Assembly (NCBI RefSeq): GCF_030682845.1
Contig: NZ_JAUXNK010000045.1
Location: 1 to 64,000 of the forward strand
DNA from: Methanolobus sp.
Lineage (GTDB): Archaea; Halobacteriota; Methanosarcinia; Methanosarcinales; Methanosarcinaceae
DNA: 64,000 bases
Direction of reading: 5' to 3'
The notes beneath the pieces were generated by a model. It was not told where the DNA came from. It saw only the letters and a program-made list of their open reading frames with translations, and ran no database searches. The translations under genes and the position numbers were made by a program. Positions 61,168-62,597 of this stretch are shown piece after piece (position 1 is the stretch's first letter; each line of letters opens with the position of its first letter).

Positions 61168-62499
61168 TCAGAGGTTCGTGCATATCCCGTTGTAGTAGGA
61201 CTCTGACCTTGCAACGGATCTTATATTCTTGAAATTGTGTTTTGCTTTAAGCAGTCTTTCAAGTCCGAATCCGGCTCCTATCCAGGGCTTATTGACACCC
61301 CAGTCCATGTCCATGGGAATGGGTCCTACAACAGCGGATGAGAGTTCCATGTTCCTGTGCATGACATCAATAGTATCCCCGTATACCATGCAGCTATCGG
61401 CAACTATTTCGTACTCGATGCCCAGGAAATCTAGGAAATCATCTATAAGGGATTCAAGGGTTTGCCGGGTACATCTTGATCCCATCTGGCAGAAGTTGAG
61501 CATTGTGAACTCTTCGAGATGGCTGTTGCCGTCGGATTCTTTCCTGTAGCAGGGTCCTATCTCGAATATCCTTATGGGGTCGGGAAGTACATTATCGAAT
61601 TTGCGAAGATGATTGTAGAGACCAGGCGCCAGCATAGGGCGAAGGCACATGTTATCTCCTACCCTGAATATTTGCCTGGAGAGCTCCTTATCCTCGCCTA
61701 CGCCCATACGCTCCATATACTCAAAAGGAATAAGTATTGGAGATTTCACTTCAAGGAAGCCCATATCTACAAAGAACTCGGTTATGGTGCGCTCAAGTTT
61801 GCCGAGCATGTTCTCCCTGCTGTCCTCATACATTGCCCTGAGGTCCTTTTTTCTCTGTGTCAGCAGGACCGATTCAAGCTCTGCAAAGGAGCGTTTTTCC
61901 TTTGAGAAAGATATCATATCATCAGGAGCCAGTAATGAGAGTATCCTGTTCTTCTGAGTCTGGGTGAACTCATTTTTCTCCGGTTTGGCATGTTTTTGGG
62001 AGGAATGGTTTACAGGTTTTGTTACCTTGGGTTGATAGGTCTTTGGTTGTGATTTGAAGGTTTGTGCAGTAGCAGATGGCTGTCGCTCTGCAGGGGAATT
62101 ATGAATCTGAGGTTTTACGATAGTGTTTGAAAGCTGCAAACTTTCGGATAGCATTGATGCATCCGGTATATCACTTTCAATAGAATTGAACTGGGAGGAT
62201 TGTACTGTTTTTACCGTGACCCTGACTTCGTCTTTCCTTGCAGTCTTATTAGAGAAATCTTTTATTCTTTCTTCTGCGAGCCTGCATTTCTTACAGGGTT
62301 TGTGGTATTTATGGTTTCGAAGAGACCTTGCGGCCCGGCTGGACCTGGAGTTCCTTACCTGGGTGACCTCTCCGCAATCCATTGTTATTCGCAGGTTCTT
62401 TTGTGATGTCTCACAACTTCTTATTCCGTGCAGGTGCCCGTTCCTTGACACCCATAGACCGTTTTTGGATATTAATGAGTCCAATGGCTTTCTTTCCAT
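61168..62499 (-). CDS. pylS: Pyrrolysyl-tRNA synthetase, fused N- and C-terminal domains
   Basis: The 443-residue enzyme charges tRNA-Pyl with pyrrolysine. Residues 1-90 are the tRNA-binding PylSn domain with zinc-type residues (H63, C69, C72 in [12 protein letters not shown]). A linker spans about 95-180, and the class II catalytic domain covers about 180-443. By alignment to the known M. mazei residues, the pocket has Y295, L298, N335, C337, Y373 and W406 (M. mazei Y306, L309, N346, C348, Y384, W417), so pyrrolysine specificity should be kept. The residue equivalent to Y308 is H297. The start ATG 62499 has GGGAG upstream. A leader frame with an internal UAG overlaps this start. Confidence 0.97.
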
Positions 62500-62597
62500 G
62501 CTGTCAGCTCCCTGAATAAAGATCGTTTCCTAAGCATTTCCTAGAATCCGAGGTATTCCAGTGTCCAGTTACTTCCTTTGCTCTTAGTGAATGACAT
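62472..62597 (-). CDS. Possible pylS leader frame with in-frame UAG (codon 19)
   Basis: On the minus strand, ATG 62597 (AGGAG 9 bp upstream at 62607-62611) opens [21 protein letters not shown] follows at 62541-62543. The same register then continues [20 protein letters not shown] without another stop until TAA 62472-62474, passing over the pylS start codon (62497-62499) in a different register. If UAG is read as pyrrolysine the ribosome would cover the pylS ribosome-binding site; if it terminates, it stops about 40 bases before that start. A pyrrolysine-dependent control of pylS is therefore possible. This is an inference; no homologue is known to me and chance cannot be excluded. Confidence 0.45.

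Follow-up and report, generated by a model that had tools for sequence, protein, structure and literature searches.

The pylS locus and its leader frame

The window, a 64,000-nucleotide stretch of a Methanolobus sp. contig (NZ_JAUXNK010000045.1), carries the pyrrolysine gene cluster pylSBCD on its minus strand. The cluster is headed by pylS (61168..62499), encoding a pyrrolysyl-tRNA synthetase (PylRS) of 443 aa that scores over the TIGR02367 cut-off, and continues downstream with pylB (60100-61158), pylC (59009-60172), and pylD (58227-59006), which match the Radical_SAM, ATP-grasp, and PylD_N domains, respectively. A RACo/RamA-like corrinoid activator with ferredoxin motifs (56578-58206) follows pylD in the same direction. 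The tRNA(Pyl) gene does not lie beside pylS but on another contig (C63:17769-17837); pylT of M. psychrophilus R15 is likewise distant from the synthetase gene, according to its dRNA-seq paper (PMC5378194).

Upstream of pylS, and on the same strand, is a short open reading frame that runs into an in-frame UAG (62541..62597), with its ATG at 62597-62595 and TAG as codon 19 (62543-62541). It is preceded by a Shine-Dalgarno-like AGGAG (62607..62611) at a spacer of 9 nt, a position that is purine-rich in relatives. Past the TAG, the leader register stays open until TAA at 62474-62472 and crosses the pylS ATG (62499-62497) in a different register. This extension begins with six codons (E-M-L-R-K-R; 62523..62540) under protein-coding constraint, described below; the remainder (62472..62522) is out of register with pylS, and its endpoint varies between species. 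Within the read-through frame lies the Shine-Dalgarno-like site of pylS itself, GGGAG (62508..62512), whose GAG columns are invariant. The preliminary description of this frame, from ATG and AGGAG to the overlap with pylS, proved right to the base. An N-terminal extension of PylS was rejected on account of the register, and no second copy of the leader was found when the rest of the genome was searched.

The predicted promoter (62701..62739, minus strand) consists of a TATA-like box, TTTAAATA (62732-62739), followed by a dyad-like element, GGAGAATATATATATATGCC (62701-62720), near which transcription is predicted to start, approximately 105-120 nt upstream of the leader ATG. The two elements recur together at 24 of the 28 Methanolobus loci and also in ANME-3. 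The dyad-like AT element (GGCAATATATATATATGCC / GACAATATATATATATGTC) is strikingly conserved, sits about 25 nt past the TATA-like box, occurs as a single copy in the genome, and is possibly an operator over the transcription start. A start site for pylS was not found in the excerpts of the Methanolobus psychrophilus dRNA-seq paper, which discuss tRNA(Pyl) (PMC5378194).

Conservation of the leader across relatives

pylS is present in 103 of 112 genomes of the family, and upstream regions were compared at 100 loci. In four genera, each of the 37 pylS loci examined has a homologous leader before it (28 in Methanolobus, 5 in Methanomethylovorans, 3 in ANME-3, and 1 in a fourth genus), with the common pattern of a start codon, M...NW-x-L-x-(Y/F)-L-G-F, and then UAG. 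The codon at the stop position is TAG at 37/37 loci and never TAA or TGA. From start to UAG the leader spans 18, 17, or 16 codons, changing length in whole codons only, and the gap between UAG and the pylS ATG is 40, 41, or 43 nt in the four genera (TAG at -43, -44, or -46). Since the register after the UAG shifts among these gaps, it is the spacing that is held and not the frame. The residues just before the UAG (W, L, Y/F, L, G, F) are near-invariant, across genera too, placing a conserved nascent peptide directly against the stop codon as in TnaC-like leaders, and those after it follow the pattern E-[ML]-[ILV]-[RK]-K.

Three cases deserve separate mention. Methanolobus vulcani PL 12/M carries two pylS copies at contig ends (L015 and L100), which differ in their promoter regions and both have the UAG leader; the two are counted among the 28 Methanolobus loci. 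One ANME-3 locus (L099) has a pylS that is interrupted by a stop and whose halves are separated by about 1.8 kb; its leader has degenerated, with Arg in place of Trp and Pro in place of Leu, which, at the level of sequence, is a natural experiment tying the leader to pylS function. An ANME-2-labelled bin (L125) contains a pylS with an ANME-3-like leader and promoter, in which the tryptophan is replaced by tyrosine and the other residues are kept; this contig is possibly misbinned or transferred.

Frames analogous in position, all without sequence similarity to the Methanolobus leader, were observed in other lineages. All 11 Methanococcoides loci encode ATG-AAG-(TGT/TAC)-TTC-GC(A/G)-ATA-GGA-GCN-TAG, with the TAG 4 nt before the pylS ATG and a purine-rich site upstream, in a spacer after tRNA(Pyl) that is otherwise variable. 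All eight Methanohalophilus loci encode M-x-Q-(N/K)-UAG-five codons-UAG, a frame that continues over the pylS start, and one genome of a further genus, outside the four, has MNK-UAG before pylS. Support for these frames comes from conservation within each genus and, for MNK-UAG, from that one genome. Their dissimilarity suggests that a UAG device may have arisen more than once. No conserved UAG frame was found in Methanosarcina (25 loci) or in six other genera. The conservation across Methanosarcinaceae on which the preliminary description made its reading depend is therefore strong for frame and UAG in four genera, but it is valid for only about half of the genera, Methanosarcina being without the leader.

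A coding signature on both sides of the UAG

On the pylS gene tree, the UAG shows no change at any of its three sites. The third positions of the nine codons before it changed 7, 1, 4, 10, 6, 11, 10, 4, and 7 times (mean, 6.7), the single low count belonging to the Trp codon, and the third-position pattern carries on for five codons beyond the UAG. Within pylS on the same tree, just 3% of third positions are free of change. A column-permutation test, which keeps every column and destroys the codon grouping, returned a coding signal for the nine codons before the UAG (p <= 5e-5) and for the six after it (p = 1e-4); codons 7-12 after the UAG gave p = 0.06, and neither wrong frame of the same leader region was significant. 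Together with the homologues at 37/37 loci and the invariant UAG, these values exclude chance as the source of the short frame, a caveat raised in the preliminary description. Coding constraint, start codon, and ribosome-binding site are all conserved, so that translation of the leader is predicted, and the UAG stands in frame with coding constraint on either side.

Because the constraint past the UAG is confined to the leader frame, it indicates that ribosomes read through the UAG during evolution. The inserted residue is presumably pyrrolysine, the natural candidate given that these genomes carry tRNA(Pyl). Restart at the ATG that stands just past the UAG in the window (GAA ATG) was considered as another source of the signal; of 27 representatives, only 18 carry ATG or TTG there, and the constraint includes the GAA codon before it, which fits read-through better.

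RNA structure offered no comparable signal. The leader region has no match in Rfam, folds no better than shuffled sequences (mean z-score +0.57 for 27 sequences), and has a weak consensus fold (-4.7 kcal/mol) with unconvincing covariation. No PYLIS-type stem-loop was seen just after the UAG, and no conserved pairing in the stretch from the UAG to pylS; likewise, neither mutually exclusive hairpins nor a terminator of the trp/his attenuator type was found between leader and pylS. An RNA-structure attenuator or riboswitch was rejected on these grounds (empty Rfam search, folding equal to shuffles, weak covariation). Folding that does not exceed chance makes a hairpin attenuator unlikely, and the lack of conserved structure points to a ribosome-based mechanism.

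Geometry at the pylS start

The Shine-Dalgarno-like site of pylS begins 13 nt before its ATG, so a ribosome ending at the UAG halts about 28 nt short of it and leaves it free. The preliminary description had the read-through frame pass over both the ribosome-binding site and the start codon of pylS. The former holds in every relative; the latter holds at only 30 of 37 loci, where the frame ends at +1, +17, +25, +76, +106, +133, or +206. At the other seven it stops before the pylS start (-1, -7, or -19). In Methanomethylovorans (five loci), read-through ends in an ATGA overlap with pylS, and five Methanolobus loci have their read-through stop, a TGA, 4 nt ahead of the pylS ATG. Overlapping or closely spaced stop and start codons usually promote coupling, and archaeal reinitiation requires a stop-start distance well under 20 nt (PMC6728339, PMC10666635). 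Taking overlap or a distance below about 20 nt as the threshold, termination at the UAG followed by reinitiation at pylS is in range in Methanococcoides (4 nt) and out of range in Methanolobus and the three related genera (40-43 nt from UAG to ATG).

A proposed sensor of pyrrolysine charging

Pyrrolysine, the 22nd amino acid, is decoded by UAG and loaded onto its tRNA by PylRS. By comparison among relatives, a conserved leader containing this codon precedes the gene for the charging enzyme, and the lack of even one change in its UAG makes it probable that this codon is an intrinsic sensor with which the cell tunes its expanded genetic code. We lean toward a translated regulatory leader whose in-frame UAG senses pyrrolysyl-tRNA(Pyl) and exerts negative feedback on pylS; regulation of pylS, its direction, and the sensing of charged tRNA are what we infer from the arrangement. 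When charged tRNA(Pyl) is scarce, release factor would terminate translation at the UAG, so that a new ribosome could reach the pylS Shine-Dalgarno site. With charged tRNA(Pyl) in abundance, the UAG would be read as pyrrolysine, ribosomes would cross the pylS ribosome-binding site or end on top of it, and synthesis of PylRS would be depressed. Feedback of this kind would keep the charging enzyme in homeostasis and might extend to pylBCD downstream. Because reinitiation over approximately 41 nt is unlikely in archaea (PMC10666635), termination must work by freeing the site rather than by passing the ribosome on. In Methanococcoides, with only 4 nt from the UAG to the pylS ATG, the same outcome could be reached through loss of reinitiation. 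Residues flanking the UAG (NW-x-L-x-YLGF and E-[ML]-[ILV]-[RK]-K) may slow the ribosome or tune read-through. An introduced UAG in M. acetivorans is read through at about 20-30% (PMC2933860), an intermediate range in which the codon could act as a responsive sensor.

Retention of the leader in both pylS copies of M. vulcani PL 12/M and its decay where pylS is broken speak for a UAG sensor. The ATGA overlap of Methanomethylovorans and the five Methanolobus loci with TGA 4 nt before ATG speak against the proposed polarity, as such geometry could favor coupling; the peptide is, moreover, conserved beyond the needs of a bare codon sensor, and the endpoint ranges from -19 to +206. The idea of a leader that senses pyrrolysine charging, as put forward in the preliminary description, thus gains from conservation and from the constraint past the UAG, which argues for read-through, but loses where overlap is not universal and where some geometries favor coupling.

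These same geometries could favor the opposite polarity, in which a UAG read as pyrrolysine would bring ribosomes to the pylS start and raise PylRS, a feed-forward arrangement that would have the operon fully on only with pyrrolysine present. Overlap in Methanomethylovorans and the 4-nt spacing at five Methanolobus loci are classic coupling arrangements (PMC6728339, PMC10666635). We nevertheless consider positive coupling unlikely: in most Methanolobus, as well as in ANME-3, Methanohalophilus, and Methanococcoides, the read-through frame ends 76-206 nt into pylS or at some other position too far past the start for coupling, and a charging enzyme under positive feedback would be prone to becoming locked in the off state. 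A TnaC-like arrest peptide is a further reading, compatible with the strong constraint on the nascent peptide: NW-x-L-x-YLGF would stall the ribosome on the UAG itself or within a few codons of passing it, and the stalled ribosome would govern how accessible pylS is or what becomes of the mRNA. The trigger could be free pyrrolysine or the pyrrolysine residue itself, and arrest could coexist with read-through sensing. Near-invariance of the residues before the UAG across genera agrees with arrest, as do a constraint that reaches only about six codons past the UAG, where the ribosome would abut the pylS ribosome-binding site, and a spacing to pylS that is fixed while the frame is not. Yet the tryptophan is replaced by tyrosine in L125 with the remainder kept, and the leader peptides of Methanohalophilus and Methanococcoides are unrelated; we know of no arrest peptide with this leader sequence and regard arrest as an improbable account of the leader.

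Coding constraint on either side of the UAG would also suit a small pyrrolysine-containing protein with a function of its own, whose place before pylS is merely operonic. However, the constraint fades past six codons and gives way to frame-breaking indels, leaving no conserved C-terminus; the fixed spacing to pylS and the lack of a copy elsewhere in the genome tie the leader to pylS; and the analogous leaders of other genera have unrelated sequences, all of which makes a free-standing protein very unlikely. Finally, the UAG could have nothing to do with pyrrolysine and be the plain stop of a short uORF that serves coupling or spacing. Such short upstream frames are common, and the genome does use TAG as a stop, at the end of 4 of 44 long frames in the 64-kb window. 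But neither TAA nor TGA appears among 37 loci of four genera, although the third base would be free to change, a coding signature extends beyond the UAG, and a UAG also occupies the equivalent position in Methanococcoides, as do two in Methanohalophilus. An ordinary stop codon is accordingly highly improbable.

Relation to known systems

The proposed negative-feedback leader shares with bacterial trpL, hisL, and tnaC a short translated ORF before the controlled gene and a critical codon at which the behavior of the ribosome reflects the supply of an amino acid or charged tRNA. It differs in being archaeal, in having as its critical codon a UAG that is either stop or pyrrolysine, and in lacking any terminator or antiterminator structure that we could find. 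The described amino-acid-sensing leader peptides, to our knowledge, sense canonical amino acids. By analogy, the pylS leader would work like such a peptide yet fails the hairpin hallmark of transcription attenuators. In prfB (RF2), an autoregulatory in-frame UGA is bypassed by +1 frameshifting within the gene's own coding frame. That stop codon lies in the mRNA of a decoding factor and monitors the factor's own activity, a role proposed here for the UAG; the pylS leader is instead a separate upstream frame that would be read through by a suppressor tRNA. No termination-reinitiation pair known to us uses a recoded stop as its switch.

In the selAB system, an RNA hairpin is bound by SelB, whereas the pylS leader has no RNA structure and is a translated ORF carrying the recoded codon itself. 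What the two would share is self-control of a recoding machinery by a cis element akin to the recoding signal it uses; for E. coli, a SECIS-like element upstream of selAB is reported to mediate such autoregulation (Thanbichler and Bock 2002, cited in PMC8124441). Among synthetic devices, E. coli switches for unnatural amino acids place TAG in the leader peptide of a transcriptional attenuation element (Liu et al. 2011, as summarized in PMC6412442); amber-tRNA charging controls the downstream gene in these, and the pylS leader would be their natural counterpart. Archaeal termination-reinitiation pairs (PMC6728339, PMC10666635) match the 4 nt of Methanococcoides, and the 40-43 nt gap of Methanolobus is too long for them.

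Nothing comparable was found in the open-access literature searched, in keeping with the preliminary description, which knew of no such leader; excerpts of reviews on PylRS evolution (PMC11363022) and archaeal recoding (PMC8211752) do not mention one. The literature searched has pyrrolysine archaea coping by avoidance of UAG as a stop and gave no account of how the level of PylRS is set. With the UAG leader, there is a specific mechanism, open to testing, by which an expanded genetic code could be kept in balance; its absence from Methanosarcina, the laboratory model, may be why it was overlooked. Synthetic circuits that report on the charging of amber tRNA could use it as a naturally occurring component, and the coding signature that runs across the UAG extends the possible pyrrolysine-containing products beyond the methylamine methyltransferases. 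We consider it fairly likely that this is a widespread natural cis-acting pyrrolysine sensor, independently acquired by several lineages of methylotrophic methanogens, which would be the first known recoded-stop leader to serve as the feedback sensor of its own decoding system.

Lineages without the UAG leader

A split-pylSn/pylSc lineage of the same class (G186, G187) shows no leader, and pylT lies directly before pylSn. In the search of Methanosarcina and its neighbors g4 and g5, a recurring match, MDSKSVQPG, was discarded because it falls within the tRNA(Pyl) gene. The pylT-pylS spacer of Methanosarcina (L036-L060 and others) contains a conserved hairpin-like stretch, GTAGCTGTCAGCAAATTGCTGACTCC, perhaps an alternative control of pylS where the UAG leader is absent. 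Two Methanosalsum loci (L039 and L063) have short uORF-like frames over the pylS start without UAG, one of them ending in an overlapping TGA, which perhaps represent ordinary coupling.
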